Origin: Brasilonema sennae CENA114
GTDB taxonomy: Bacteria > Cyanobacteriota > Cyanobacteriia > Cyanobacteriales > Nostocaceae
DNA length: 64,000 bases
Direction of reading: 5' to 3'
NCBI RefSeq assembly: GCF_006968745.1
Contig: NZ_CP030118.1
Span: 1,872,654-1,936,653, forward strand
The position numbers were made by a program, and so were the translations under genes. The first letter of the stretch is position 1. Each line of letters opens with the position of its first letter. Below are positions 6,150-23,819 of this stretch, piece after piece. Below the pieces are notes generated by a model, which made no database searches, was not told where the DNA came from, and saw only the letters and a program-made list of their open reading frames with translations.

Positions 6150-7883
6150 TTAGAACAAGAAATAACGTTGTGTCATAGGTAATGACGTAGCAGGTTCACA
6201 AGTTAACAACTTCCCATCTACCCTGACATGGAAAGTTTCTGGATCAACATCAATTTGTGGAGTAGCGTCGTTGAGTTTCAAATCTGCTTTTTTCAACTCA
6301 CGTGTTTTGGAAACTGCGACTGTTCGAGTTTTTAAACCAAGTTTTTCAGGTATACGCTGTTTCAAGGCTTCGTTGGAAACGAAAGTTATAGAAGTTTCAG
6401 CCATTGCACCGCCAAAGCTACCAAACATCGGACGCATATGAACTGGTTCCGGAGTGGAGATACTAGCGTTAGGATCGCCCATTTGTGAGTAAGCGATCAT
6501 TCCTCCTTTGATCACAGTCTCTGGTTTCACGCCAAAAAACGCTGGCTTCCACAAACACAAATCTGCTAGCTTCCCTTCTTCAACGGAACCTATATGATCT
6601 GCAACGCCATGAGCGATCGCAGGGTTGATGGTGTATTTGGCAATGTAGCGTTTTGCCCTAAAATTATCATGGGTTTCGTGAGGATGACCAGGAGAAGGTA
6701 ATAATCCCTTCTGTACTTTCATCTTATGGGCAGTTTGCCAGGTGCGAGTAATCACTTCCCCTACCCTTCCCATTGCTTGAGAATCGGAAGACATAATGCT
6801 GATAATCCCCATATCATGCAAAATGTCCTCAGCTGCAATTGTTTCCTTGCGAATTCTCGATTCGGCAAATTTGACATCTTCACGAATGTTTTTATCGAGG
6901 TGATGGCACACCATCAACATATCGAGATGTTCGTCAAAAGTATTGATAGTATAGGGACGAGTGGGATTAGTAGAAGCAGGCAAAACATTAGCTAGACTAC
7001 AGACTTTCAGAATATCAGGCGCGTGACCACCACCTGCACCTTCCGTATGGAAGGTGTGAATAACACGGTTTTTAAAAGCAGCAATAGTATTTTCCACAAA
7101 TCCTGCTTCATTCAGAGAGTCAGTGTGAATTGCGACTTGTACATCGTACTCATCTGCAACCGAAAGACAAGTATCAATCGCATTCGCGGTGGTTCCCCAA
7201 TCTTCGTGCAGCTTTAAACCCATGACTCCCGCAGCAACTTGCTCTATCAATCCTTCAGGTTTGCTAGTATTACCTTTGCCCAAGAAACCAATGTTGACAG
7301 GGAAAGCATCAGCCGCTTGTAGCATGCGGTAAATGTTCCAAGGACCAGGGGTACAAGTCGTGGCGAGAGTACCCGTGGCAGAACCAGTACCACCACCAAT
7401 TAAAGTTGTCGTACCAGAGGCGATCGCAGTTTCGATTTGCTGAGGACAGATAAAGTGAATGTGAGTATCAATCGCCCCAGCAGTCAGAATTTTGCCTTCT
7501 CCTGCGATCGCTTCCGTCCCAGGACCAATAATAATATCTATATTGTCTTGTGTGTAGGGATTACCTGCTTTACCAATTTTAAAAATCTTCCCGTCTTTAA
7601 TACCAATATCTGCTTTAATAATGCCTGACCAATCAAGAATCAAGGCGTTGGTGATCACCACATCTACTGCACCATCAGCATTTGAAATGGGGGATTGTCC
7701 CATACCATCCCGAATCACCTTACCACCACCGAATTTAACCTCTTCCCCGTAAAGCGTACCACCATAGGTTGTGTAGTCTTGTTCCACTTCAATGAACAAA
7801 TCCGTATCAGCAAGACGGATGCGATCGCCAATCGTAGGACCAAAAGTATTGGTATATTCCCGTCGGTTCATAAAATAACTCAT
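6150..7883 (-). CDS. ureC: Urease subunit alpha (UreC)
   Basis: The catalytic subunit of nickel urease, which hydrolyses urea to ammonia and carbamate. All active-site elements are visible: DTHIHF with the two nickel-binding His, the GLKLHEDWG lysine that is carbamylated, the His in [27 protein letters not shown], the mobile flap [22 protein letters not shown] and the metal-binding Asp in SSDSQAMGR. The start chosen is the ATG of [16 protein letters not shown] (577 residues), because homologues begin there; 30 extra in-frame upstream codons are unlike the family. It is separated from the other ure genes by more than 10 kb of inserted DNA and must have its own promoter or have lost co-transcription. 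Confidence 0.95.
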
Positions 7884-8687
7884 GTTTAATATCTTTGTAG
7901 TATCCCAAGAGTAATCACTTTGTATAAAGTAAACCGTAGGGTGCGCTAAGGCTTTGCTATAGCGCACCGCCATATAACATCGTGCGCTATAGCGCTTTAA
8001 TCATGTTTTTCGTGACAAATCATATCAAAATATGCGCCAAACACAACGGCAAAAACGATTTAGAACTCCTAGAAGGAGTCGGATCTGAATAGATTTGGAA
8101 TTGGTTCATCAAGGCAAAATGACGCCCGTTTTCTTTGGTAGTGCCATTACCAACTTCGGGGTTGAGTTATTCTTAAAATATTTTCTTGAGTATACGCTCA
8201 AACCTGGTCCTTATAGTACCACAGTTGGTGAAGTGACTCCTATATATCCAGAGTTTTCTGGATTTGTCTTCAAATTTCAAGCAAACATAGACCCGAAATA
8301 TCGCGATCACGTCGCCTTTATCCGTGTTTGTACAGGCAAATTTGATTATTGACGGCAAACAGCAGTTTGCCAAGTTGAATGATTGTTTTGTGTCCTTAGT
8401 AAGTTATGATACTGCCTAGCCGAGTGAGTTTAGCAATAATGCGGAAATATTTTTGAGATAAGGAGGTTACCGAGTATGTGTTGATTATGCTCTCGAAATA
8501 TAACTAATACCAATTCTGTATGAGGCTGCGCTCTATTTCTCCACAGGGTGAAGGGGCTATACAAACAAAGCCTGCCTCCGCAGGCTAAAGATTTAGCGCA
8601 TCTTCAGAAAGAAACAATATAACCCAAGTAGGTCTCAATAATTGATTTGAACTGTACAGATTATTTGAGTTTTTAGGAGATAATTTG
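7884..8687. other. Spacer between ureC and the defence operon
   Basis: It contains a palindromic patch around 7938-8000 (GCGCTATAGCG repeated), the prfC fragment described separately, and a short perfect hairpin AGCCTGC-loop-GCAGGCT near 8568-8585. It must also carry the divergent promoters for ureC and the methyltransferase, but no clear -35/-10 pair could be fixed. Confidence 0.5.
8053..8347 (+). pseudogene. Fragment of a second prfC copy
   Basis: This 295-bp stretch aligns with positions 1869-2163 of prfC at roughly 90 percent nucleotide identity by eye, in the same orientation. Similarity stops abruptly at both ends. A one-base deletion turns the parental GAATTAGAT into GAATAGAT and introduces a stop, so the remaining 85-codon frame ([20 protein letters not shown] and onward) is not an independent gene. 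It encodes only the middle of RF3, without the GTPase domain. It marks the left edge of the DNA inserted between ureC and ureF. Confidence 0.9.
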
Positions 8688-9893
8688 ATGGCGCTGAAAG
8701 CCTTAGACCTATTTTGTGGAATGGGTGGTTTATCTTGGGGATTAAAGGGAACAGGAGTTATCGAACCATTATGGGCAGTAGATAATTCTGAGCCTGCACT
8801 TGCTCTTTACAAGCGTAACTTACCCAATACTCAAGTATTAAATCTTGACCTTTCTAAACTTTCAAATATCAAAATTTTATTTGAAAAAATTCAATTTCAT
8901 GGTGGAGTTGATTTAGTTGTTGGTGGTAGTCCATGCCGAGGCTTCACACAAATTCGTAATGGTCAGGATACAGATTCAGATCCACATAATCGGCTAGCAA
9001 TCAAGTTTGCTGATATTATACGTGAGTTAAACCCGCTTGCCTTTATTTACGAAAATGTACCTCAGCTAGAAAATTCTAGAGTGTTTCAGCGATTTCTGGG
9101 CAGATTGAAAGGACGAAATAGCTATCGAGTAGCCCATGCAGTAGTAGAAGCAGCAAATTTTGGAAATCCTTCTCGACGAACCAGATTGTTTGTATTGGGT
9201 ATTCGATGTAATGTGGGGCGGGTTCCAATTATTCCAAAAGGATTGGATATTCCTCATTATCATTTTTGGTGGCAAAGAGATGAGCAGAACGGGAAAATAG
9301 TTTACTATCCAAAGCTTGAGGAACCTTGGCTTGCGCGTTTGGTTGATCCAAATGACCTGCAATTAGTCAATGTAGAGCAGGCAATATCAGATCTGCCAAT
9401 ATTGGAAACTAAAACTCCTGGCAATAATTGCTTTTACTCAACTCCTCCTCAAAGTGCCTATCAAAAATGGGCAAGACAGCATTTGCAGGAAACTGATGGT
9501 CATGCAGTTCCACGTATATTACCAGAGACCAGAATGCGATTGAAAGCGGTGATTCCTGGGGGTAACTGGAGAGATTTACCTGAACCCTTAACTTATAAAA
9601 TCCCTAGTGATTCAACCAGTGGTAAGCTGAGGCGCAAGCACTACAGTGCTTACCGTCGGCTGCTTCCAGAAGGTCACAGTCCTACAGTGCAAGGTCATGC
9701 AGATTTTGCTTACCATTATCAGTATGAAAGAACCCTTACCCCTCGTGAGTTGGCTCGATTAATGGGCTTTACAGACGATTTTCGGTTGGGACACGAGTAC
9801 TGTTCAGTCGTCCAAGCAATTGGTAATGCTGTACCTCCTATACTGGCGAAGGCGATTGCTGAATCATTGATTAGACAGCTAGACGATTGTTAA
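8688..9893 (+). CDS. drmMII: DNA (cytosine-5) methyltransferase, DISARM DrmMII type
   Basis: A C5-cytosine DNA methyltransferase that transfers methyl from S-adenosylmethionine to cytosine. The motifs are in order: I (DLFCGMGG, about residue 7), IV (GGSPCRGF, catalytic Cys near 83), VI (YENVPQLE, near 121), VIII (RRTRLFVLGI) and the C-terminal IX-X region (SPTVQGHADF, ELARLMGF, GNAVPP). The target-recognition region between VIII and IX is single and about 130 residues. ATG at 8688 follows AGGAGA at 8675-8680; the TTG just before is less likely. In class 2 DISARM this enzyme marks self DNA. Here it precedes drmE by 228 bp. A stand-alone orphan methyltransferase is less likely given the next three genes. 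Confidence 0.9.
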   Translation: MALKALDLFCGMGGLSWGLKGTGVIEPLWAVDNSEPALALYKRNLPNTQVLNLDLSKLSNIKILFEKIQFHGGVDLVVGGSPCRGFTQIRNGQDTDSDPHNRLAIKFADIIRELNPLAFIYENVPQLENSRVFQRFLGRLKGRNSYRVAHAVVEAANFGNPSRRTRLFVLGIRCNVGRVPIIPKGLDIPHYHFWWQRDEQNGKIVYYPKLEEPWLARLVDPNDLQLVNVEQAISDLPILETKTPGNNCFYSTPPQSAYQKWARQHLQETDGHAVPRILPETRMRLKAVIPGGNWRDLPEPLTYKIPSDSTSGKLRRKHYSAYRRLLPEGHSPTVQGHADFAYHYQYERTLTPRELARLMGFTDDFRLGHEYCSVVQAIGNAVPPILAKAIAESLIRQLDDC

Positions 9894-10121
9894 CCAACTG
9901 GGTTACTAAAATTGACATTCAGTTGCAGAACTACTTTGTGAAAATTTTGTAAATTTAATCGCTCGAAGAAAAGTAAGGCTGAAGCAGCCCAGATTAAGTA
10001 AATTCTTAATTGTATGACTGCAATCAGTTAATTTAATTAGTGAATTTTTAAAGTACCTCTGGTAAATACCTAGAAAAGGTGGATATCTTGTATTTAGTAA
10101 GCTATAAACAGGATAGAGTGT

Positions 10122-12677
10122 ATGCCAGCAGAGCCATCACTACCAGATGCTGTTCATATAGCTTTTGGTCTCGATGTAACAGGTATTTCGTCGGTAACAC
10201 CATCCTTGGCAACAACCTTTCAGGAAAACTTCAGTTATAGATACCAACAGCAAGAAACAGCAGATCAACCCAAAGACGATGATCCAAATGAAGCTCAAGC
10301 CTGTGTAACTTTAGTTAGACAGAGTTTGACAGAAGAACCGTGGGGAGAGATTTTCAGAGGGAGTTTTAATTCAGAAGTAAGACACCAAGTGTTTGAACGA
10401 ATACTTGGATGCTTAAAGAGAAATAGTAACTCAATACAAATACATACACTAGAGAAAGACTTAACTTATTTATCTGCTCTAAGTATTTCTAAAAAACGTC
10501 AATTATTTATTAGTTTTCCTGTTTCTCCAGTTTCTCTAGGTATACTTTTAGTTATCTATTATGCACATCTTTTTAGAGAAGAAAGAGATATTTCTCATAC
10601 TCATCATGCAATATCAGCTAAAGATTTTGTTATTTGGATTCGACCTCAAGATAATGGTAAAGTCTCCAATTTAAGGACAACAAGGGCATTTAATCTCATA
10701 GAAAGAGAAGATACTCATTGCGCTCTAAGTGAGAAAATTGCTTGTTTACCTGCTTATAAATTTGAGGAATCATCCCAAAGTCAACGCCTAAGAGTTGTTA
10801 TGGTGCGATCGCTTTCAGAAGCTGTTGAATTATTTAAGGAGTCTCAATATTGCTCTCTAGTTGTAATTGATGACCCATCAGGACAAACTTACCCATCTCC
10901 ATCTAGCTATGGAACTGAAGCGTTTAAGTTAGCGAGCCTTTGTAGACAAAAACAAATTCCTATGGTGGGTATTGTTCCTCCTTGGGCAATGAGAGATATT
11001 GAATACCGCGAAAAAAATCACCCCTGGGGAATTTTACTTTGGCCTGTAGACTTCTTCGCTCTACGTTCTTATCCAGCAGATAGGGGTCTTTTTGCTAACG
11101 GCGGAACACTTCACCCTATTGAGGAGAGTTATTTACTGCTAGAAAGAAAACGCCTGTCTTTAAAAGAGGCGCAAGTAACTATTAAAAGTTTTAACTTTAA
11201 TACGGAAGATGAAGAAAAAATCTCAGAATTATTTCAAGAATCGTCAGCTTTACTAATCGATTTGGCAAAGCAACCTCAATTGAGGATAGTTGGAGTAACA
11301 GGATGGGAAATATGGCGACATCTCTCTGCTCCAGTGTTACCCTTTTATTTACTATGGGGAAAGTTTATTGAAAGTAAGCTTAAGCATTTACAAAATACTG
11401 TGAGTAAATCCAAAGATGACAAGGCACTAACTTTATATAACCTTCTAAGCTCTCTTGCGCTCAGGCTACAAAGACTCAATTCTAACCCCTTTATAGAAAT
11501 TATTAAAGCATCTGATGTAGACACTATCGTTGCAGTGGAAGATGCAGAAAGAGCTAATGCCTTAGAAAAGTTTTTAGGAGAATACTCCGGTTATTCTATA
11601 CCTCAAATTTTACCACTCAGCGAAATTCGAGGATTTGGTGGAAAAAAACTTATAGTTATTGGTCAGCCAAAGGCTTGTTACCGTGATATACTCCAAACTA
11701 CTTTCTTCCGGCATATAGATGTTTTAATGTGGTCAGTATTATCTGAACGTGCCGAGCGGTGGTGGAGCAATCTGGAAGTTGATGCTAGAGAATTGCACCG
11801 TAAAACTTGGCAGATATTAACTGAAAAAACACAAGTAGGACGTTATGGTTTTAGTTCGGAATATACATCAGTTCAAGTAGTTAATACAGGAACGGCAAAG
11901 TTAACTAAGAATATTAATATATCTGAACTAGAAGAAAGTTTCAGTAACTTGAGTGGAAGTGTTCTAGACACAGGTTTAAAAAATTATCTTTCAAATAATT
12001 TGGAGTCCCATTATCTAGTTGAGTTTGAACGTGGATTAAAAATCAGGGTAGCACCTGGTAGTGATTTTTTGGTGTTATCAGGTAAAAAAGCTCAGGTTGT
12101 TGCTGTCAGAGAAATAACTGCTGAAACAAAAGTTATTTTATTTGATGGCATGACCCGTGATGAGTTGTTTGCTCAAAAGGCTGGTTTATTGGAAGATACC
12201 AAAGTTAACTATCTTTATCGCATACAGTTAGATGCATGGCGCGAGCTAGTAAAGCAGCAGGTTAAAAAGTTAAATGTGCGAACTGTATGCCGAGAAATTC
12301 TGCGTGAAACGGGTATACCTATTGGAGAAGAAACGATCCAGTATTACTGGATAAATGGTGATGACCTCCTCAGTTTACCTCGTGAACAAGAGCATTTCTT
12401 TTGGTTTTTACCACCTCTGGCTCGTTCAGGGTTTGAAGAATTTTGGCTAAAGGCTAATGACCTGAGAATTAAGCGTAGACAACTTGGTCAAGTTATATCT
12501 GCTTGTGCTCAAGAGGGATGGAAGGAGAGGAAATCAGACGAAATTGTCTTTCAATACGAGCAAGTTTTTATAACTGTTGGTGAATTGCGAGATGCCATGT
12601 TGGTGTTAAAAGTAAAGTCTAAACCTCAAATGATTCGTCAAAAACCTGAGTATCCAATAAATCGACTTTTTAGATAA
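10122..12677 (+). CDS. drmE: DrmE-like DISARM protein
   Basis: An 851-residue protein with no domain that I can name with certainty. Its place between a C5-methyltransferase and drmA-drmB, on the same strand with 16 bp to drmA, and its length fit DrmE, the class 2 DISARM protein of unknown function. Hydrophobic strands ending in acidic residues (SLVVIDDPSG, IPMVGIVPPWA) suggest alpha/beta domains. The C-terminal half is rich in basic and acidic residues, and there is no signal peptide or membrane segment. I assigned it mainly from context, so the operon role is better supported than any biochemical activity. Confidence 0.7.
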   Translation: MPAEPSLPDAVHIAFGLDVTGISSVTPSLATTFQENFSYRYQQQETADQPKDDDPNEAQACVTLVRQSLTEEPWGEIFRGSFNSEVRHQVFERILGCLKRNSNSIQIHTLEKDLTYLSALSISKKRQLFISFPVSPVSLGILLVIYYAHLFREERDISHTHHAISAKDFVIWIRPQDNGKVSNLRTTRAFNLIEREDTHCALSEKIACLPAYKFEESSQSQRLRVVMVRSLSEAVELFKESQYCSLVVIDDPSGQTYPSPSSYGTEAFKLASLCRQKQIPMVGIVPPWAMRDIEYREKNHPWGILLWPVDFFALRSYPADRGLFANGGTLHPIEESYLLLERKRLSLKEAQVTIKSFNFNTEDEEKISELFQESSALLIDLAKQPQLRIVGVTGWEIWRHLSAPVLPFYLLWGKFIESKLKHLQNTVSKSKDDKALTLYNLLSSLALRLQRLNSNPFIEIIKASDVDTIVAVEDAERANALEKFLGEYSGYSIPQILPLSEIRGFGGKKLIVIGQPKACYRDILQTTFFRHIDVLMWSVLSERAERWWSNLEVDARELHRKTWQILTEKTQVGRYGFSSEYTSVQVVNTGTAKLTKNINISELEESFSNLSGSVLDTGLKNYLSNNLESHYLVEFERGLKIRVAPGSDFLVLSGKKAQVVAVREITAETKVILFDGMTRDELFAQKAGLLEDTKVNYLYRIQLDAWRELVKQQVKKLNVRTVCREILRETGIPIGEETIQYYWINGDDLLSLPREQEHFFWFLPPLARSGFEEFWLKANDLRIKRRQLGQVISACAQEGWKERKSDEIVFQYEQVFITVGELRDAMLVLKVKSKPQMIRQKPEYPINRLFR

Positions 12678-12693
12678 GGTGCAGGAGTAATTT

Positions 12694-15600
12694 ATGAAGC
12701 CAGAAGATATTCTCAGTGATACAGGTTTGAATGTATCTGATTCTCAAAGACAAGAACAACATTTGCAATTTGTTGAAAATTTTTATCGGCGTATACATGG
12801 TCACATAACAGGAATATCTGACCATCGGAGTGTTATTACAGGCTCAACTGAACCTCGACGTTTGATGCCAACTGGTTATCTCTCAGCATTACCAGCAGTT
12901 TCATCAGTAAGTAGCCAACAACAGAATACTTTCCGTCCTAGTAATTGTGGTTTAGTAATTAACTTAGCTACAGATTGGGAGCAAAAGCAGTTACCTATAG
13001 AGTTAAAAATTCGCTTTAGTGTTTTCCTGCCTAAACTTGATTTAAGTAAAGCTGCGGATCGGTCATTAAGACCAATGTGGCAACGCTTTGATATAAGTGC
13101 TTCTATCAGTTCTATCATTCAGGATTTATTCGGCGATGGTTCTCCTACTCTTACTAAACTCAATCAGGATATTACAGACCAACTCATAAAGATAATTGAA
13201 ATACATCAAGCAGATTCACAATCTTGGCTACTAGGACTTAATCCAATAATTGATGATTTAACCGGATCCGAATTTATCTTAGATCAAGATAAAAATTATA
13301 AAGAATTACAAGCTGAACTACGTAAGCGAATTACTAACAAAAAAAATAAAGGTAAAAATGACAAGACTACTGCTGACAGTGATATTCCGTTAGGTCAAGT
13401 TTCTCCTGTTAATTTCAAGGTTACAGTTGAAGCACAAAAACGAACTTTAGGAGGACAAACGAGACTACGTCTATTTTTGAGAAATAAGAGTGACCAGATA
13501 GCTATTTTTGGCGATCCCAGAGATACAGGTTTATTTGGAGCTTGCCTGGAAATTAAATTACCACAAGAAATGTGGCAGCCGATAGAACTATCTCGATTTA
13601 AAATATCTTACCAAGTGGACTCAACCGTTCCTGCTCAAGGAATTAACTGTACACCACAATTTGATGAGAATCAGGGCTTTGTTCGTATCTGGACTGAGTT
13701 TTTACCCATTTATTGGCAAAAGAGACTTTATACTGCTGGTATTAAAGCTCCTTTTAAATATTTGGCGATCAATGATGGAGATGCTGACCTTCAAATACTC
13801 CAATCCATTTTGCTAAAAATGGGAGAATATCGAGATAATTGGCAAGCATTAATTAATCAAAAACATCCACAAACAGGGGGAAATCAGGATAACGCTGAAG
13901 CTCAAGCCGATTTAGATAATTTTAAGCAAGAAATTCAGCGCTTTGAGTTAGGTATTCAGGTTTTATCAAATCCAAAATATGCCATGCTTCGACGGGCTTT
14001 TAATTTGATGAATCAGACATTTGTCGAGATTGATGAAAAGCGCAAGCAACGTAAAAAAGCAATTTATGAGAACTGGCGACCTTTTCAAATTGTTTACATT
14101 GTTTCTAATCTTGTAGCACTAGCAGCACGAAAATGGACTGGAGATTTCACCAAAAATCCCTTGGCACAGATTGACCATGCTGCCGTGGTTCATTTCCCAA
14201 CTGGCGGTGGTAAATCTGAAGCTGTGATGGGAATCATCCTTACTCAAGCATTTTTTGACCGCCTGCGGAGTCGGGATTGGGGCGTAGTCGCTTGGTTGCG
14301 CTATCCCCTACGCTTGCTCACTTACCAGCAATTGCAACGTTTTCTGGATACTCTTGTTGTTGCAGATGAAGTCAGAAAACAGCAACCCGATTTAGCCAAT
14401 ACTGCTGAGTTCACAGTAGGTTATTACGGCGGTCGAGATAACAGTCCAAATTCTCTGAAGTCTGTTCCCGATGAACTCGGAAAATACATAGGACAGGCTA
14501 AAAAGGAAATGCAAGATGCAGGTATAACAAAGCTTCCTAAATACTTAAGTTTGGCGGATGTAGGACAATACGTTCCCGGCTCAATCCAGCAGTATCGCAT
14601 GGTAATGCGCTGCCCCTACTGCGGATTAGAGGAAGTTCACACTTTTATCGATCCACAAACAAAAGAACTTCGGCATCGTTGCGGTTCTCTAAATAAACCT
14701 TTACCTCAAAATGCTTGTGGTCGGGAAATTCCACTCTACATTGTTGATGAAGATATTTACAGCCGACTGCCAACTCTACTGGTAGGAACTCTTGACAAAA
14801 TTGCCAATATAACATTTCGTCCTGCTAGCCGCACTTTGTTTGGTGGTGTCTCAGATATATGTTCTGTACATGGTTTTGTAGCGAATAACACTTGTCACAA
14901 ACAGGATTCGGTTGGTGGATGTACTCGACGAGAATTGAAACATCTCTCCAGCGCACCTGTTGATCCTGGCATCCCTCTGATTTTTCAGGACGAATTACAC
15001 TTACTACGCGAAGAATTAGGAACTTTTGATGGTCACTACGAAGCTTTGATTGATTCTATTCACGAAGAACGGGGGGCAATACGTCCAAAGGTTTTGGCTG
15101 CAACTGCTACCATTGAGGGGGCAGAGCAACAAACTAGACATCTTTACTGGCGAGAACTTTCTCAATTTCCAGTGCGAGGACCTGCTGAGGGACGTAGTTT
15201 CTATGCAAACCAGCATAGCCGATATGTAACTAGAGGCTTTGTGGGGTTACGTCCTACAGCGGCTAATCCCCTTGATGCAGCAATGGCTTTAATTTCAGCC
15301 CTACGGACTGAGTTAGAAATTATTCGCAACAATCCTGCAAAATATAAGGTTGAGTATGGACTTAGTTCTTTAACTGATGAGGAATTTCTAAAATTAGTAG
15401 ATGAGCATGACCTTTGCTGTACTTATGTAAACTCGAAAAATGATGGTTCTGATATTCGACGCTCCATTAATGAACAAGTAAAGGCTGAATTGCGAGATCA
15501 ATTTGGAGAAAGCCAAGCCAATGCTATGCTTCCAGAAGCAATTACTCTTTCTGGAGATGATGGGATTGAGGTGGTTAAAGAAGTCTTAAAACGGATGGAG

Positions 15601-16320
15601 ACACGGCAAAAAGATTTGAATCCAAATAGCTCAGAACGGCTAAGAGATGTGGTAGCAACCAGTTTGATTTCTCACGGGGTTGATATTGACCGACTTAATT
15701 TAATGTTGTTTTACGGATGGCCCAGTACAACAGCGGAATACATTCAGGCATCAAGTCGTGCTGGCAGAACTGTTCCAGGTTTAGTATTCATATTATTTCG
15801 ACCGCAACGCGCTCGTGAACGAGCTATTTTTGACTATTTTGTGAAAGCGCACGAATACTTAGATCAGATGGTGGAAGCTGTCCCCATTGACCGCTTTGCT
15901 CACAATGCTCTTTATCGAACAGCTTTTGGTTTACTGCTTGGACGCTTGCTTCATATTGATGGTCCTGCGGCGCGAGGAGGAAATCAGGTGATTGACTTAG
16001 CAGGAATAGATAAACTTGATAAATTGCGCGAGCTAATTCATGGTCTCGGAAAAGGGGGTTCGCCTATTGATATTAATACTGTTGTCGGTAAAATTCCTAA
16101 TACTATTAACCCCGATCTTTTGCCAGAGGGAGAGGTTTTTAATATACCCTTGAAGTTAGTTGCTGCTGCTTTTTTGTCTCAAATAGAACGCATTGTACAA
16201 GATCCAAATGAAAGTAATCTTGTTACCAATGGTTTGACAAAAGATGATATCGCTGACGATTTCCGTCTGCTATTATCTCTTCGGGATGTCGATACAGGTA
16301 TTCGGATTACTGGGTACTAA
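12694..16320 (+). CDS. drmA: DISARM helicase DrmA
   Basis: A 1208-residue SF2-type helicase/ATPase. Visible motifs are Walker A FPTGGGKSEA (about 502-511), a Walker B/DExH box QDELHLL (about 765-771), motif III LAATATIEG (about 798), motif V TSLISHGVDIDRLN (about 989) and motif VI QASSRAGRT (about 1018). Between Walker A and DExH there is a Cys cluster (CPYCG and a later Cys pair) that may bind zinc. The long N-terminal 450 residues are outside the helicase core. In published DISARM work DrmA and DrmB form a DNA-binding complex. ATG at 12694 follows GGAG at good spacing, 16 bp after drmE, so the two are probably co-transcribed. Confidence 0.88.
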   Translation: MKPEDILSDTGLNVSDSQRQEQHLQFVENFYRRIHGHITGISDHRSVITGSTEPRRLMPTGYLSALPAVSSVSSQQQNTFRPSNCGLVINLATDWEQKQLPIELKIRFSVFLPKLDLSKAADRSLRPMWQRFDISASISSIIQDLFGDGSPTLTKLNQDITDQLIKIIEIHQADSQSWLLGLNPIIDDLTGSEFILDQDKNYKELQAELRKRITNKKNKGKNDKTTADSDIPLGQVSPVNFKVTVEAQKRTLGGQTRLRLFLRNKSDQIAIFGDPRDTGLFGACLEIKLPQEMWQPIELSRFKISYQVDSTVPAQGINCTPQFDENQGFVRIWTEFLPIYWQKRLYTAGIKAPFKYLAINDGDADLQILQSILLKMGEYRDNWQALINQKHPQTGGNQDNAEAQADLDNFKQEIQRFELGIQVLSNPKYAMLRRAFNLMNQTFVEIDEKRKQRKKAIYENWRPFQIVYIVSNLVALAARKWTGDFTKNPLAQIDHAAVVHFPTGGGKSEAVMGIILTQAFFDRLRSRDWGVVAWLRYPLRLLTYQQLQRFLDTLVVADEVRKQQPDLANTAEFTVGYYGGRDNSPNSLKSVPDELGKYIGQAKKEMQDAGITKLPKYLSLADVGQYVPGSIQQYRMVMRCPYCGLEEVHTFIDPQTKELRHRCGSLNKPLPQNACGREIPLYIVDEDIYSRLPTLLVGTLDKIANITFRPASRTLFGGVSDICSVHGFVANNTCHKQDSVGGCTRRELKHLSSAPVDPGIPLIFQDELHLLREELGTFDGHYEALIDSIHEERGAIRPKVLAATATIEGAEQQTRHLYWRELSQFPVRGPAEGRSFYANQHSRYVTRGFVGLRPTAANPLDAAMALISALRTELEIIRNNPAKYKVEYGLSSLTDEEFLKLVDEHDLCCTYVNSKNDGSDIRRSINEQVKAELRDQFGESQANAMLPEAITLSGDDGIEVVKEVLKRMETRQKDLNPNSSERLRDVVATSLISHGVDIDRLNLMLFYGWPSTTAEYIQASSRAGRTVPGLVFILFRPQRARERAIFDYFVKAHEYLDQMVEAVPIDRFAHNALYRTAFGLLLGRLLHIDGPAARGGNQVIDLAGIDKLDKLRELIHGLGKGGSPIDINTVVGKIPNTINPDLLPEGEVFNIPLKLVAAAFLSQIERIVQDPNESNLVTNGLTKDDIADDFRLLLSLRDVDTGIRITGY

Positions 16321-16344
16321 TTATTAAAATTGGGGAATAAATAT

Positions 16345-18390
16345 ATGAGTCAGCCAGCATATAGCCGTTCTAAAGGTCAAGTATTGCGTCGATATGAACC
16401 AGGAAGTGTTGCGACAATTCCTGCCGGAACTATTCAAGTTTATAGACATTTTGCCAGAAAAGTAGACGAACTTAGCAGAAAATTACAAGATGCTGTGCGC
16501 CAAGAACTTTATCGTTGGGAGCATAAAGATGCTCAAATGACGGCATTTGAAAACTACACTGCAGAATGTGTTTTTGTTATCACCCAATCAGTTAATGGTA
16601 AAAGATTAGAAGTTCGAGAGTGTGCCAACTGCGGAGCTATTCGTTACATAAAGCAATGGAGAGGAGACCCAGATGCACCCTGCCATCGTTGTAATCATCC
16701 AACCCTAAATGAAATACCCTTTGTTTTTGCTCATACTGATGGCACGATGATTCAGTTAACTCCCAGAATTTGTCCGCATCACGGTACAGATTATTTAGTA
16801 TTGGAAAGGGGCTACCTAAAGCGATGGCGGTGTAAGGTTGACGGCTGTAGTCATGCAGAAACAATAGTCCTTCCTTTACCTAAAAATTCTATCATGAAGC
16901 GTTCTGAGGTCGTGAATTCTATAGAGGGAAAAACAGGTAAGCCGCCTAGCCAAATGATGTCTTTGACGAACGTTTCTGATAATAAGCTTCAGGTAGTTCA
17001 TTCGCTTTCTCGAATTAATCCTACTCCAAATGTTGAGAAGTTTCTTGGCTATTCTGAATCTCTTCAAATCCTTTTAGCTATACATCTAGATTATTTTAAG
17101 CATCAGTGTAAAAATATTTCTGAATTAACAGAAATTATTCGGGTTCTTGGTCAAGGCAGTCAGGAAGACCAAAAAGAATTAGAGCAACTACTGAAAACCC
17201 TGCAATTGAGCGGCTTGGATGAGGTACAAATTAAAAAAATTCTAGCTAACAGAAAACAAGTTAAAGAGAGCGAGGCTGGTGGACCAATTGTTGCTGACTT
17301 AAGAAAAGCTTTAACGCAACTTTCGCCCAATACCCTACAACTATTAGGAGATGCTAAGACAGAAAAAGAAACACGCGATCGCAGAGAAAATATAACAGCT
17401 GCTCAGGAGAATGCTCGTACCCTTAGAGAACAGCTCGGTGACTATGCTGTGTTGCTAGATTTACAGGCTGAAAACCTTGATGAGGCTGTAACACATTTAG
17501 CTGGGATTAACTCCCCATTCTATGCCAATTTGTCAGCGGCAGGTTCTTTAATGCGTAAGAGCTTGGGCATAAATCAGGTGATGGTCATTAAAGACTTGCC
17601 TGTCTTGCATCTTGCCTACGGATATACTCGCTTATCTCACCAACCGGAAGCCTCTGTATTGTGGGCATTTGACCGCAAGAACTTTGATTTGGCAGGCGAG
17701 GAACCAAAAGGAAATTGGATTCCCATGCCAGTTTACAAACTTAAAACTGAAGCCCTTTTGTTCCAATTCGATGCCAAACGGATTGTTAGATGGCTCCATG
17801 CCAATAATTTAGCTCCCGCTCCAACTAGTATTAGCGAACCAACACTCTGGCTATTAGAGCACCACAGTCGGATTACTAGCCGTAGTGGTCCCGCATTTAA
17901 CGATACTTTGCCTCCAGATTTTCTAATTCCCTGGTTAGTAAGTTCGGCGCTACACAGTGCTAATCATCTTTTAATTAAAGCGATCGCTGACCAAAGTAGC
18001 TTCGGTGAAACTGCTCTTTCTGAACATTTACTTTTTAGTCTGAACCAAACAATAATTTTTGTAAATCGCTTGCAAGAATTTTCTCTTGGCGGACTGAAAA
18101 CCTTTTTTGAGCAGCGTTTGGATCAAGCATTTCAAAGCCTTTTGCAAGAAAGAGGCGACTGTATGTTTGACCCCTACTGTGAAGAGTCTTTGGGAGGAGC
18201 TTGTAATGGATGTTTGCATTTACCAGAGGTCGTTTGTCGCCTATTTAATAATGCTCTCAGCCGTATATTACTTTACGGTGGTGAAATTAGCACAAATATG
18301 GAGGGCGTTGAAAGAACTCTCTGGAATAGTCTATCCTCCCTAGTTGAGAGTGATCAATTTATTGGTTTGTGGGATAGCAGTGTAGATTAG
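16345..18390 (+). CDS. drmB: DISARM protein DrmB (DUF1998)
   Basis: A 681-residue protein with N-terminal zinc-finger-like Cys pairs (CANCG at about 95, CHRCNH at about 114, CPHHG, then CKVDGC) and a C-terminal DUF1998 region with CEESLGGACNGCLHLPEVVC followed by NNALSRILL. DUF1998 is the defining domain of DrmB, which partners DrmA. I chose ATG at 16345, preceded by GGGGA, over an in-frame TTG five codons earlier. It starts 24 bp after drmA. No gene for the phospholipase-D-like DrmC follows: the next 370 bp are repeat DNA and then ureF on the other strand. Confidence 0.87.
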   Translation: MSQPAYSRSKGQVLRRYEPGSVATIPAGTIQVYRHFARKVDELSRKLQDAVRQELYRWEHKDAQMTAFENYTAECVFVITQSVNGKRLEVRECANCGAIRYIKQWRGDPDAPCHRCNHPTLNEIPFVFAHTDGTMIQLTPRICPHHGTDYLVLERGYLKRWRCKVDGCSHAETIVLPLPKNSIMKRSEVVNSIEGKTGKPPSQMMSLTNVSDNKLQVVHSLSRINPTPNVEKFLGYSESLQILLAIHLDYFKHQCKNISELTEIIRVLGQGSQEDQKELEQLLKTLQLSGLDEVQIKKILANRKQVKESEAGGPIVADLRKALTQLSPNTLQLLGDAKTEKETRDRRENITAAQENARTLREQLGDYAVLLDLQAENLDEAVTHLAGINSPFYANLSAAGSLMRKSLGINQVMVIKDLPVLHLAYGYTRLSHQPEASVLWAFDRKNFDLAGEEPKGNWIPMPVYKLKTEALLFQFDAKRIVRWLHANNLAPAPTSISEPTLWLLEHHSRITSRSGPAFNDTLPPDFLIPWLVSSALHSANHLLIKAIADQSSFGETALSEHLLFSLNQTIIFVNRLQEFSLGGLKTFFEQRLDQAFQSLLQERGDCMFDPYCEESLGGACNGCLHLPEVVCRLFNNALSRILLYGGEISTNMEGVERTLWNSLSSLVESDQFIGLWDSSVD

Positions 18391-18763: not shown

Positions 18764-19468
18764 TTAACTAGCAAATAATCTCTGAGCGAGTTTTTGATGC
18801 CGCATTTGGGCGATATCTATAGTAGGAGTACAAGACCACATTTGCTCCAGACTCATTGATGCAGCAGTGTGGTAGGCTGTCTCAATCTCTGGTGCTAGCT
18901 GAAGCAAAACTCGTTGTGCTTGCAGATGTCCCACAACACTCAAACGGATAGCAGCCCCCAACAACCCAGTGACGAAGCTATGCAAAAAACCCAGCACTGT
19001 ATCCTGTTCACTCAAAAGAGCTGCTCTACCAACTACAGCAAAGACAACTGGATGTAAGCAATTAATTTTACCAATAGCCGCATCTTGATTTAAAATGTCT
19101 AATTGAGAATCTTGCCAAGTTGAACTGGCAACCATGAGCAAGGCGCGTCCGCTTTTGCGCTGGGTTTCGCGCGTTTTCTCAACTAAGGTTTGAGCAAATA
19201 ATCGAGCATCTGCGGTTCGTACTGCTTCCAAGTCAGCGATCGCACTTCCTCGGTAGGCGTGGATCAATGCTACTGTATCTGTAACTCCTACCTTATTACG
19301 TAATAATAGCCGCAAAAAAGTTTGCAAGTCTTCTGAACCACGGAGTTGATTTTCTTGGACTAAGGATTCTAAGCCGTGAGATAAAGTAAAAGAGCCAGAG
19401 GGGAAGAAAGAATCAGACAACTGCATTAAGGTGAGTTGTTGGGCGAACACGGATGCAGGTAAACTCAT
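18764..19468 (-). CDS. ureF: Urease accessory protein UreF
   Basis: UreF is the activating partner in the UreD-UreF-UreG complex that loads nickel into apo-urease. The 234-residue, mostly helical protein has the family's start [24 protein letters not shown] pattern (shown in shortened form here: [10 protein letters not shown] then SHGLE) and the conserved [17 protein letters not shown] segment near residue 170. Its start codon overlaps the ureE stop by 4 bp, which suggests translational coupling. It is the last gene of the G-D-E-F run. ureC, which would be expected nearby, lies beyond the DISARM genes. Confidence 0.92.
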
Positions 19469-19989
19469 GAGCCGTGATCGTGATGACTGTGTGGAGAAAA
19501 GTCGAGATGTTGTTGGGGCGATCGCAGTTCAAAGTCAATCTCTAACCCAGGAATCTGAAAATCCCGAACGGTTGATTCCATAACTTCTACATCTGCTGCT
19601 AATTGAACGTAGAGCTTACCATCTTGCACAATAATAGGCCAATGGTGATTACCCAAGACATGACCGAGATGAATTAATTCAATCGGATGCTCAGTAACTG
19701 GCTTAGTAAAACTAAGTACCATGACCTTTTGCTCTTGCAGATGAACAAGTAGTAATTTACCTTCTTCCGTTTCTAAAACATCTCCTTCCCGCAGTGCCCA
19801 ATCTCGACTTTTCACAATTCCTACAGCCGCACCAGTGGTAGTGTGAGCGTGAATTCGACCTTTACGGCTATCAGTTTGACTGATATGAACTTCCAAGCAA
19901 AGTGCTGAAAAACGAGCTTTTTCTATCCGTTCAGATAAGCTGACATTTTCTTTTGAATTGCCCAGGTAAATTTCTGCTAATTCAGTCAT
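19465..19989 (-). CDS. ureE: Urease accessory protein UreE
   Basis: UreE is the nickel metallochaperone that delivers Ni2+ to the urease activation complex. The 174-residue protein has the two-domain UreE layout: an N-terminal beta domain containing [11 protein letters not shown] and LREGDVLE, and a C-terminal metal-binding domain with [10 protein letters not shown]. It ends in a short His-rich tail ([10 protein letters not shown]) that fits nickel binding. It overlaps ureD by 4 bp and ureF by 4 bp. The product is longer at the N-terminus than a minimal UreE (about 150 residues). Confidence 0.93.
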
Positions 19990-20834
19990 AAATCATTGGG
20001 TAAAAGAGGTTGATCAATAGAGCGACGCACGCAGTTTAAAGCGTTTTTTAAAAACTTTTTGAGTTCATGAGTCCCACTCGCCATAGCTCTAATCAGCAAA
20101 CCTTTGTTTCTTGGTAATATTGAGCTTGCGACAGTCAAACCTGAGCAGTTAGCTGCTTCGAAATTTTCTACATTTTTACTTACAAATTCGAGATTTATCT
20201 CAGGTAAAACAACAATTATATTACCAATCATAGGTGAAGAAGCAAATAGATTAGTCTTAGTAAAAAGATTTTCTTTTCCTTCTAAGCGCATCGCATCAGT
20301 AAACCATAGCTCTCCACAAGTAGAACTCACTTGCAAGCGACTAAAATAGTGATTAAATTGGTACAATTCTCCTCTAGCAAGCCTTCCAGGTAAAATCATT
20401 TCACTCAAAAATAATCTTCCAGTTGGATGAATCTTGATATTTATACTTTGCTCCAAAGTCGCATCAGTAAAGAAAATTAACGGTTCTGGTACAAATTCTA
20501 ACGTTGCGCCTTCCCCAATTTCAATTTCATAATTGGTTGTCGCTTTTGAGCCTGCTATAGGCATCGAATGAACTTTAGTTGCAGCTTGTTCCGTAAGATA
20601 AACGCTAGTATGATCTGCGAGTTGCAAAGATACATTCAACTCATCTTGTGCGAGTAAACCTGGAGATGTGCTCATAACATAGAGATAAGCACGCTGAAAA
20701 TCAGCATCATCGAGATAAAATACCGGAGATACCCTCAAAGGATAAGCTGTGTATTGATGGCTGAGAATAGTTTGACCAAAGCGATTACACTTGAGCCCTA
20801 ACTCCAAGTTATAGCGCTTCTCATCTGCGTCCAT
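19986..20834 (-). CDS. ureD: Urease accessory protein UreD (UreH)
   Basis: UreD is the scaffold that docks on apo-urease and recruits UreF and UreG for nickel insertion. The 282-residue protein shows the family pattern: QAATKVHSMP after a beta-rich N-terminal part, GATLEFVPEPLIFF near residue 129, then LPGRLARGE near 167. Its end overlaps ureE by 4 bp and its start overlaps ureG by 14 bp, indicating one transcript. Nothing in the sequence suggests damage, so the accessory set looks functional despite the split locus. Confidence 0.92.
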   Translation of the reverse strand: MDADEKRYNLELGLKCNRFGQTILSHQYTAYPLRVSPVFYLDDADFQRAYLYVMSTSPGLLAQDELNVSLQLADHTSVYLTEQAATKVHSMPIAGSKATTNYEIEIGEGATLEFVPEPLIFFTDATLEQSINIKIHPTGRLFLSEMILPGRLARGELYQFNHYFSRLQVSSTCGELWFTDAMRLEGKENLFTKTNLFASSPMIGNIIVVLPEINLEFVSKNVENFEAANCSGLTVASSILPRNKGLLIRAMASGTHELKKFLKNALNCVRRSIDQPLLPNDL

Positions 20835-21498
20835 CTACTTCGGCGTCCATGTGCAGTTCCTCAATTTTTTGATGTATTACAGAAGCACTGCGAAACAGAA
20901 CTGTCTCCAGAATAAAATCGATTATCTCGTCTAATCCTTCTCCCGTCTTGCAATTAGTATATGCAATAGGTTTACCTCGACGGTATACCGGGGCTTCTTT
21001 CCGGATTAACTCCAAATCAGCACCAACATAAGGAGCAATATCAATTTTATTAACCACTGCTAAATCAGCTTGTACAAAGCCAGGACCATTTTTGCGAGGG
21101 ATATCATCTCCCGCACCTACATCAATCACAAAAATATACGAATCCACCAAATCATAGCTAAAAGTGGAGGCAAGATTATCACCACCACTTTCAATCAAGA
21201 TTAAGTCTAATTCAGGAATGAGTAACTCAAAATCCTTTACTGCTAAAAGATTCATACTCGGATCTTCCCGAATTGCTGTGTGCGGACAGCTACCCGTTTC
21301 TACTCCGACAATCCGTTCTGGAGGTAAAAATCCGCGACTTTTGAGTCGATCTGCATCTTCCGTAGTTAGTAAGTCATTAGTGACAACTGCTACTTCAATG
21401 CCCTGATTCATCAATGTTGGGACTATAGACTCTATTAGAGCTGTTTTTCCGCTTCCTACTGGTCCCCCAATCCCCAGTCGAGCTGCTGACTTTAGCAT
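20821..21498 (-). CDS. ureG: Urease accessory GTPase UreG
   Basis: UreG is the SIMIBI-class GTPase whose GTP hydrolysis drives nickel transfer to urease. Visible are the P-loop GPVGSGKTALIES (about 12-24), the nickel-binding Cys-Pro-His in GSCPHTAIRED (about 71), the Walker B-like LILIESGGDNLAS and the G4 motif VNKIDIAPYVGA. At 225 residues it is a little longer than most UreG (about 200). It is the first gene of the minus-strand G-D-E-F operon. The plus-strand beta-propeller gene diverges from it across 266 bp, where the operon promoter should lie. Confidence 0.94.
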   Translation of the reverse strand: MLKSAARLGIGGPVGSGKTALIESIVPTLMNQGIEVAVVTNDLLTTEDADRLKSRGFLPPERIVGVETGSCPHTAIREDPSMNLLAVKDFELLIPELDLILIESGGDNLASTFSYDLVDSYIFVIDVGAGDDIPRKNGPGFVQADLAVVNKIDIAPYVGADLELIRKEAPVYRRGKPIAYTNCKTGEGLDEIIDFILETVLFRSASVIHQKIEELHMDAEVDGRR

Positions 21499-21764
21499 AG
21501 CTAATCTATCCTGCTTGAACTCTTGGAGACTGCTAGTATAATCAGACCCTAGCTATCTTCACTATTCTACAGTAGTCGTTACATACAAACGCAGCTATAA
21601 GAGTCCTGCTTAAAATGATGGACACTTATCCTCATGCTTAGGACTGAGTTCAGGGTTGAACGAATTCACTACAGTAGATTAAGAAGTAGGTGCTGAAGGA
21701 GTGAGCCATTTAGTGCAACAGATGCTCATAGTGGCAGCACCGATGAGGTTTGGAGGTTCAAACA

Positions 21765-22778
21765 ATGGATAATACTCTACAGCAAATAGTCGAGCAGGTT
21801 GAGCCGACTTCGCACAAGCAAACAGATACAGATTTTGCCAATGCCTCTGCGACGATACACAAACCCGTAATAATAGCAGGAACATCTGATGGCTTGCTGT
21901 TTCTCGATTCCAGGCAATATGTTGAACTTGAAGGTCATTCCATCACTGCTCTTGCCTCAAGTCCAGATGGGTTGTGGGTTATAGTTGATCGCAACTCGGT
22001 ATGGCATCGTAACCTAGAAGGCGAGTGGCATCAAATAACTTCAATTGATGATTTAAAGCTAAATTGCATCCTGCCTTACAATGACTCAGTTCTAGTCGGA
22101 ACATCACAAGCTCATCTCATCCGCATTGCAGACGGAAACACGAATCGCATCAATTGCTTTGAGACGGCTGAGGGACGAGATGAATGGTATACGCCGTGGG
22201 GTGGTCCTCCAGATGTTCGTTCGATGGCTATAGGTCAATCTGGTGAACTCTACGTGAATGTGCACGTTGGAGGCATTTTGCGCTCCGATGACCAGGGAAA
22301 GTCATGGCAACCTACCATCGACTTTCATGCAGATGTCCATGAGGTGCTGACTGTTCCATCTCATCGAGATCTTGTGCTAGCGGCTACAGCCCAGGGGCTG
22401 GCTGTGAGTAAAGATAGAGGGAATTCTTGGAGGTTTTCACACGAAAACCTACATGCTGCTTACGCACGAGCCATAGCTGTGTGTGAAGAAACCATTTTGA
22501 TGACTGCTTCTACTGGTCCAAGTGGTCACAAAGCAGCCATCTATCGACACCCACTCGACAAGCCAGGAGCCTTCGAGAAATGTGAGCGAGGGCTGCCGGA
22601 GTGGTTCAATAACAATATCAACACGGGAACTCTTTCTACGTCAGGGAATTTAGCTGCTTTCGGAACCACTGACGGTCAGGTCTTTTTCTCGGATGATGCT
22701 GGCAGTACGTGGAAGCAAGTTGCAGCGGATTTGGCTTCAATCTGCTGTCTGAATCTTATGGCGACTTCCAAGAAATAA
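21765..22778 (+). CDS. BNR/Asp-box beta-propeller protein
   Basis: A 337-residue protein made of beta-propeller blades. Three Asp-box motifs of the sialidase/BNR type are clear: RSDDQGKSW (about 180), VSKDRGNSW (about 219) and FSDDAGSTW (about 316). Similar proteins are WD40/YVTN/BNR-like and serve as binding scaffolds or glycan-related enzymes; the catalytic residues of true sialidases are not evident. No signal peptide is visible, so the location is uncertain. ATG at 21765 with GGAGG eight bases upstream is better than the TTG five codons earlier. It sits on the opposite strand between ureG and ureB and so interrupts the urease gene order. Confidence 0.75.
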   Translation: MDNTLQQIVEQVEPTSHKQTDTDFANASATIHKPVIIAGTSDGLLFLDSRQYVELEGHSITALASSPDGLWVIVDRNSVWHRNLEGEWHQITSIDDLKLNCILPYNDSVLVGTSQAHLIRIADGNTNRINCFETAEGRDEWYTPWGGPPDVRSMAIGQSGELYVNVHVGGILRSDDQGKSWQPTIDFHADVHEVLTVPSHRDLVLAATAQGLAVSKDRGNSWRFSHENLHAAYARAIAVCEETILMTASTGPSGHKAAIYRHPLDKPGAFEKCERGLPEWFNNNINTGTLSTSGNLAAFGTTDGQVFFSDDAGSTWKQVAADLASICCLNLMATSKK

Positions 22779-22828: not shown

Positions 22829-23455
22829 TCATTTTTTCTGTTTCTCTAAAGACCCATTCACTAATCCATTAAAACCATAGATTTCACGGCTACCACCGAA
22901 TGGGACTAACTCAACTTCTCTTTCATCTCCTGGTTCAAATCTAATTGCTGTCCCCGCTGGAATATTTAAGCGCTTACCGTAAGCTTTACTGCGCTCAAAT
23001 TGTAGACCTTTTTTGTCTTGACTGCCATCATTAACTTCATAAAAGTGGAAATGAGAACCAACTTGAATTGGGCGATCGCCTTGATTACTAACTCTAATTT
23101 TGGTAATCTCTCGCCCACCATTGAGTTCGATTGGTTCTGATTTAGTAATTATTATCTGTCCTGGAGTCATTGCTATTTTTTCGACTTTAATCGAGGAAGC
23201 CTCGTTGTTAAAGTTTTTACCCTCAATCTTAACATTTCTCAGGTCACCGACATTACTAGTAAAGATTTTACTCCTACCCCTAAATTCCTCGTCTTCGTAT
23301 ATCGTGACTTTCATGCCTGCTGGCACTGTTAAGGAACTGAGCTTATTGTCACCAATTCCCAAATCGTAAATCTTATACTCCCCTTCTCCCAGTTCCTTGT
23401 GATTTCCCTTGTAGTTAGGAGCTTCATAAATCACTACTTTGTTACTTGTATACAT
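22829..23455 (-). CDS. ureB: Beta-gamma-crystallin domain fused to urease subunit beta (UreB)
   Basis: A 208-residue two-domain protein. Residues 1-95 form a microbial beta-gamma-crystallin domain: Greek-key strands [11 protein letters not shown] and [11 protein letters not shown], each half ending in the family's calcium-binding signature (DNKLSS at 36-41 and NNEASS at 83-88). Residues 96-208 are a complete UreB, beginning MTPGQIII where normal UreB begins, with the conserved [32 protein letters not shown] and YGFNGLVNG. The whole is in one uninterrupted frame. An AAGGG lies upstream of the distal start, and no ribosome site precedes Met96. Normal UreB is about 100-110 residues, so the N-terminal domain is extra. 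ureA lies 58 bp upstream. Confidence 0.9.
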
Positions 23456-23513
23456 TTATAATTGCCCTTACTCTCAACTCATAATCTAAAATTCTGCATC
23501 TTTTCGGGAGATT

Positions 23514-23819
23514 TTAGTCTTGAATGGGATTATGTACTGTTACTAATTTTGTTCCATCAGGAAAGGTTGCTTCTACTTGCACTTCATGGATCATTTCTGG
23601 TATTCCATCCATAACATCATCCCTTTTCAATAACTTTCCTCCCTCACTCATTAATTGACTCACAGTTTTTCCTTCTCTTGCGCCTTCTAAAATAGCAGCA
23701 GATATATACGCGACGGCTTCGGGGTAATTTAGCTTTAACCCCTTGTCTTTACGTCTTTGTGCTACTAGAGCCGCTGTAAAAATGAGCAGTTTATCTTTTT
23801 CTTGAGGTGATAGTTGCAT
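23514..23819 (-). CDS. ureA: Urease subunit gamma (UreA)
   Basis: A 101-residue structural subunit of the UreABC holoenzyme. The family pattern is complete: [20 protein letters not shown], then [45 protein letters not shown] and VTVHNPI at the end. It is the first gene of the urease locus and is followed after 58 bp by the ureB fusion. The upstream 1.7 kb has no gene, and the promoter must lie close to 23830-23900. The GTA and TAC triplets there are seven, not eight, bases apart, so I do not call an NtcA site. Confidence 0.96.

Follow-up and report, generated by a model that had tools for sequence, protein, structure and literature searches.

Urease is among the best studied metalloenzymes, and we know of no description of a urease subunit that bears a folded domain of foreign origin. 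The beta part carries extra sequence at its N-terminus in Helicobacter pylori UreA (gamma-beta) and in the single-chain plant urease, the partner in both cases being another urease subunit. In UreB of Yersinia enterocolitica (4z42, 6yl3), an N-terminal extension of 20–30 disordered residues, not a folded domain, lies outside the dodecameric holoenzyme at the place where the UreA and UreB chains are split (PMC7547064). The microbial beta-gamma-crystallins studied so far (Protein S, hahellin, clostrillin, 3hzb) either stand alone or are parts of other proteins, none of them a urease subunit. In a stretch of 64,000 nucleotides of the Brasilonema sennae CENA114 genome (contig NZ_CP030118.1, positions 1,872,654 to 1,936,653; hereafter the window), a gene termed cry-ureB was found, in which a beta-gamma-crystallin domain, foreign to urease, is joined in frame to the N-terminus of a complete urease beta subunit (UreB).

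Architecture of the fusion protein

The gene cry-ureB is a single open frame on the minus strand (22829–23455), which starts at ATG and codes for 208 amino acids. Residues 1–95 (23171–23455) constitute the crystallin domain, and residues 96–208 together with the stop codon (22829–23170) a complete UreB. The first part was matched by Pfam PF00030 (Crystall) at residues 49–93 (E 1.1e-8, over the gathering score). The second part was matched by Pfam PF00699 (Urease_beta) at residues 98–201 (E 2.1e-41; profile positions 1–97 of 98) and by NCBIfam NF009682 (urease subunit beta) at residues 96–205 (E 4.5e-44), with 148.7 bits against an equivalog cut-off of 129, i.e. over the whole length of the family and above the curated cut-offs. 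In a profile comparison with PDB chains, the crystallin half matched Protein S, lens gamma-crystallins, hahellin and clostrillin, Protein S being the best match, and the UreB half matched UreB of Sporosarcina, Klebsiella and Yersinia.

A structure was predicted from 36 sequences, which gave a better model than an earlier one built from nine. The crystallin domain was predicted confidently and the UreB core with fair confidence, while residues 98–113 and the C-terminus had low confidence. Foldseek searches with the predicted model returned both families at probability 1.00; for the crystallin half, the matches at this probability were 3hzb (a crystallin domain of Flavobacterium), Protein S (1nps) and clostrillin, with template modelling (TM) scores of 0.73–0.83, normalised to the target. 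The PF00030 and Foldseek matches together point to two Greek-key motifs in one domain of the crystallin fold, and both the predicted fold and the signature positions are shared with the microbial beta-gamma-crystallins named above.

With the bacterial UreB of Klebsiella (2kau) and Sporosarcina (1ubp), the fusion protein has in common the complete UreB domain, the place of its gene between ureA and the accessory genes, and the glutamate that contacts UreD. It differs from them by the additional folded N-terminal domain of 95 residues and, in most fused copies, by a small insert following FYEVN. At the site of this short insert, UreB of unfused operons of the same type (L111–L115, L117–L120, L161) carries an insert of about 20 residues.

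The architecture is almost certainly a genuine fusion. Because the same fusion is encoded by ten genomes, it is neither a product of chance nor of a sequencing error at the junction, the latter having been named as a possible refutation when the in-frame fusion of 208 codons was originally predicted from the nucleotide sequence. The prediction itself was confirmed by the Pfam, NCBIfam and fold matches and by the recurrence in ten genomes, the coding strand being the minus strand.

Translation as one polypeptide

The codon of Met96 (23168–23170) corresponds to the ancestral UreB start, and a methionine is kept at the junction in eight of the ten fused genomes. This would be consistent with UreB being begun at Met96, the crystallin part being a separate or untranslated product and the fusion not existing in practice. 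In the two genomes of the Amazonocrinis group (G397 and G398), however, AAT or ACT (Asn or Thr) stands in place of the old UreB start codon, and no ATG, GTG or TTG was found within 40 codons before or 45 codons after it. Since the Met96 codon is replaced and no start is nearby, UreB can only be produced there as part of the fusion. The frame is furthermore open in all ten fused genomes. A ribosome-binding-like element, AAGGG (23465–23469, minus strand), stands 5′ of the fusion ATG, and comparison of upstream sequences revealed a similar purine-rich AAGG-type element 5′ of the ATG in most relatives, whereas no ribosome-binding-like element was found in front of Met96 in the genomes that keep this methionine. 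Separate production of UreB is hence extremely improbable, and an independent start at Met96, the second objection raised with the original prediction, was rejected on the basis of the two relatives with AAT or ACT. An extra short UreB product is possible in the eight Met-keeping genomes and would be minor.

Distribution and origin

A search of cyanobacterial genomes for other crystallin–UreB architectures, as had been proposed along with the prediction, yielded ten carriers in all, the window's genome included: five Brasilonema/Scytonema genomes, two of the Amazonocrinis group, Anabaena azotica, Cyanocohniella and one metagenome-assembled genome (MAG). These represent ten species in at least four or five genera, named carriers including Brasilonema, Scytonema tolypothrichoides and Amazonocrinis nigriterrae. 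Within the window's genus, the fusion is present in the window's genome and in four others, out of seven, at 93–94% identity; four more carriers belong to the same family (in total 9 of 218 family genomes), and the MAG was assigned to a different family within the order. The MAG, labelled Microcoleus, carries the fusion on one 5.7-kb contig, and mis-binning is possible. A sample of the class (390 genomes) contained only the window's own fusion, and a sample of the order (391 genomes) contained three. Eight loci, each matching a fusion already found, came from a pattern scan over 84,980 species genomes; the scan is limited to crystallin domains closely related to this one, and independent fusions in distant phyla would escape it.

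Using the window's distinctive UreD as a marker, the operon type was identified in 19 of 212 family genomes, nine of them fused and ten unfused. In the final operon trees, rooted on standard UreABC, the fused operons grouped together with those of g72, a lineage that has the same operon without the crystallin domain, with a support of 97 (UreC), 98 (UreA + UreC) and only 53 (UreA + B + C), and the sister of this group was formed by unfused Nostocaceae. Within the group, g72 tended to nest beside G569 (support 80–87). The tree of UreB alone likewise placed g72 among the fused copies (the group with G569 and G853 had a support of 83), and a grouping of the fused operons to the exclusion of all others was rejected on the multi-gene alignment (approximately unbiased test, p 0.003). 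The trees suggest, as their simplest reading, one gain followed by one loss in g72. In most g72 genomes (L104–L109), UreB starts with MYKxN...PLVPGQII, and the fused proteins, which open with MYTSN or a similar sequence, pick up again at PGQII; judging from this resemblance, the short N-terminal extension of g72 UreB may be a stub that remained after deletion of the crystallin part. An ancestral fusion that was lost in the unfused Nostocaceae, as read from first trees with g72 as outgroup, was withdrawn, given that g72 falls inside the fused group when standard UreABC serves as outgroup.

Selection on the crystallin domain

Pairwise ratios of non-synonymous to synonymous substitution rates (dN/dS) of the crystallin half were mostly 0.05–0.25 and close to the values of the UreB half, the closest pairs being noisy (0.63 in a pair that differs by few changes) and dS being near saturation between genera. 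In the same half, 49 of 95 positions are invariant (nine genomes, 68–94% identity). To judge by these substitution patterns, purifying selection acts on the crystallin half and has kept the domain. The fused subunit is the only UreB of the window's genome and of seven other fused genomes; a second, ordinary UreB elsewhere was considered and rejected, as none was found in these eight genomes.

A neutral passenger, i.e. a tolerated domain that was fixed by chance in one lineage and is constrained only by folding and non-interference, would fit the narrow distribution, the apparent loss in g72 and the drift of the calcium motifs described below. The low dN/dS and the share of invariant positions, however, suggest more than mere foldability, and the domain has been retained across all carrier species and their genera, which makes a neutral passenger unlikely.

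Placement on the enzyme and probable role

In plant urease, about 30 residues lie between the same gamma and beta parts that are parted in Yersinia, and since the Yersinia extension is located outside the holoenzyme at this join, there should be room for the crystallin domain. The C-terminus of the fused UreB is short, like that of the trimeric Klebsiella enzyme, and is devoid of the helix and loops linked to dodecamers, wherefore a trimer is expected. From the homology to these enzymes, an ordinary (UreABC)3 trimer is expected, with three crystallin domains exposed on its outside, at the points where the chains of UreA and UreB separate. The glutamate of the RFEPG motif (E174) is invariant and was equated with Glu177 of H. 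pylori UreA, which contacts UreD (PMC10121161); as this UreD-contact residue is preserved, normal maturation is plausible.

It is proposed that, within a ureABGDEFC operon of a cyanobacterium, UreB acquired the crystallin domain at its N-terminus in a single event, and that the domain has been a constitutive part of the enzyme ever since. There it would serve as a compact surface module that makes the trimer more stable or more soluble, or that mediates its docking, either to other trimers or to a partner. Any calcium binding that survives would lend the domain some firmness at most and would not act as a switch of catalysis. Such a structural appendage on a normal urease trimer, be it stabilising, solubilising or docking, is tentatively regarded as the most likely role of the domain, in light of the sequence comparisons and the homologies given above. 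Attachment, which had been contemplated from the outset, and stabilisation are both possible.

Several points weigh against this role. The predicted model leaves the orientation of the domains undefined (predicted TM score 0.47; predicted local distance difference test below 50 for residues 98–113). Motifs of the Protein S type, NNxxSS, bind calcium in other proteins. The g72 lineage, moreover, has the same operon and has apparently lost the domain, from which it follows that there is no general need for the domain and that urease assembly as such can do without it.

Calcium-type signatures

Both signatures on which a connection to calcium had been predicted are present on the minus strand, namely DNKLSS at residues 36–41 (23333–23350) and NNEASS at residues 83–88 (23192–23209). 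The consensus N/D-N/D-x-x-S/T-S is satisfied by both motifs in six of the ten fused proteins, that of the window included, and at least one motif is broken in the other four, the departures being DKKLSS (two genomes), HNQLSS, VNQASS and NNEACS. The motifs of the window resemble the NNxxSS motifs of Protein S, its best PDB profile match, which was solved with calcium (1prr), and calcium transients occur in Anabaena (PMC7065334). Taken together, these observations would be compatible with Ca2+ on the crystallin domain tuning the stability, assembly or activity of urease and thus linking urea use to cyanobacterial calcium signals.

On the other hand, none of the ten fused proteins has Asp at position 2 of motif 1, and only one has it in motif 2; of 18 stand-alone cyanobacterial relatives, by contrast, 16 have ND-xx-S/T-S in each motif. 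The calcium motifs of the fusion are thus weaker than those of its cyanobacterial crystallin relatives, although this comparison amounts to one evolutionary contrast and not to ten, since the ten fused proteins are one lineage. In addition, the published Ca2+ affinities (4–100 μM, PMC3551895) mostly exceed the cytosolic Ca2+ of cyanobacteria, which is about 0.2 μM at rest and at most 4 μM in transients (PMC7065334). Tuning of urease by calcium is therefore rated as rather improbable. It is very doubtful that Ca2+ sets urease stability, assembly or activity through the UreB crystallin domain in such a way that the use of urea nitrogen is coupled to calcium signals in heterocyst-forming cyanobacteria. 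The originally predicted tie between urease and calcium was not borne out, as the signatures are not preferentially conserved; calcium switching is possible and weakly supported, and it is not the best bet.

The urease operon and its surroundings

The gene order ureABGDEFC is known from Cyanothece PCC 7822, and the review that describes it (PMC6737895) mentions no crystallin domain. An identical order (ureA, cry-ureB, ureG, ureD, ureE, ureF, ureC) was observed in the relatives with the fusion. In the window, all genes of the operon are on the minus strand. The genes ureA (urease gamma subunit, 23514–23819), ureG (20821–21498), ureD (19986–20834) and ureE (19465–19989) were identified by family-library matches, and ureF (18764–19468) by its position and its recurrence in the operons of all relatives. 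The genome's only copy of ureC (urease alpha, the catalytic subunit, 6150–7973) was identified by operon comparison and contains the nickel-site motifs. The fused UreB is hence encoded together with ureA, ureC and the accessory genes, with ureC separated by an island in the window.

This DISARM-like island (8685–18390, plus strand) lies between ureF and ureC and codes for a DNA cytosine methylase, a protein of 851 amino acids without PADLOC match, DrmA and DrmB. Because the gap between ureF and ureC is only about 0.3–1.1 kb in the relatives, the island appears to have been inserted into the urease operon. Between cry-ureB and ureG stands, in inverted orientation, a BNR/sortilin-like gene (342 amino acids, 21750–22778, plus strand), which the genus has but which is missing from the other fused operons that were examined. 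In G392 and G393 (L071, L072), two members of this genus, the urease locus is a different one, of the standard type and with a normal UreB, so the type of urease operon varies within the genus.

As the fusion is always accompanied by its own accessory genes in one operon, the crystallin domain might also aid maturation, by recruiting or positioning the UreD–UreF–UreG complex or by shielding the apo-enzyme while nickel is loaded. In unfused operons of this type, however, the accessory genes are linked just as closely and a crystallin domain is lacking, which argues that no accessory protein depends on the domain, and a function in maturation appears quite unlikely.

Conclusions

Both parts of the protein are, by their sequences, ordinary members of known families, and their combination appears to be new. 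In agreement with the original prediction, no published crystallin–urease fusion was found in the literature searched, which covered few subscription journals. As the domain was apparently gained once and lost once, closely related operons with and without it exist naturally, and the role of the appendage in stability, oligomer state, maturation and calcium response is thereby directly testable. It is uncommon for a crystallin domain to form part of a defined enzyme complex, as it does here on the sole UreB of several filamentous cyanobacteria.
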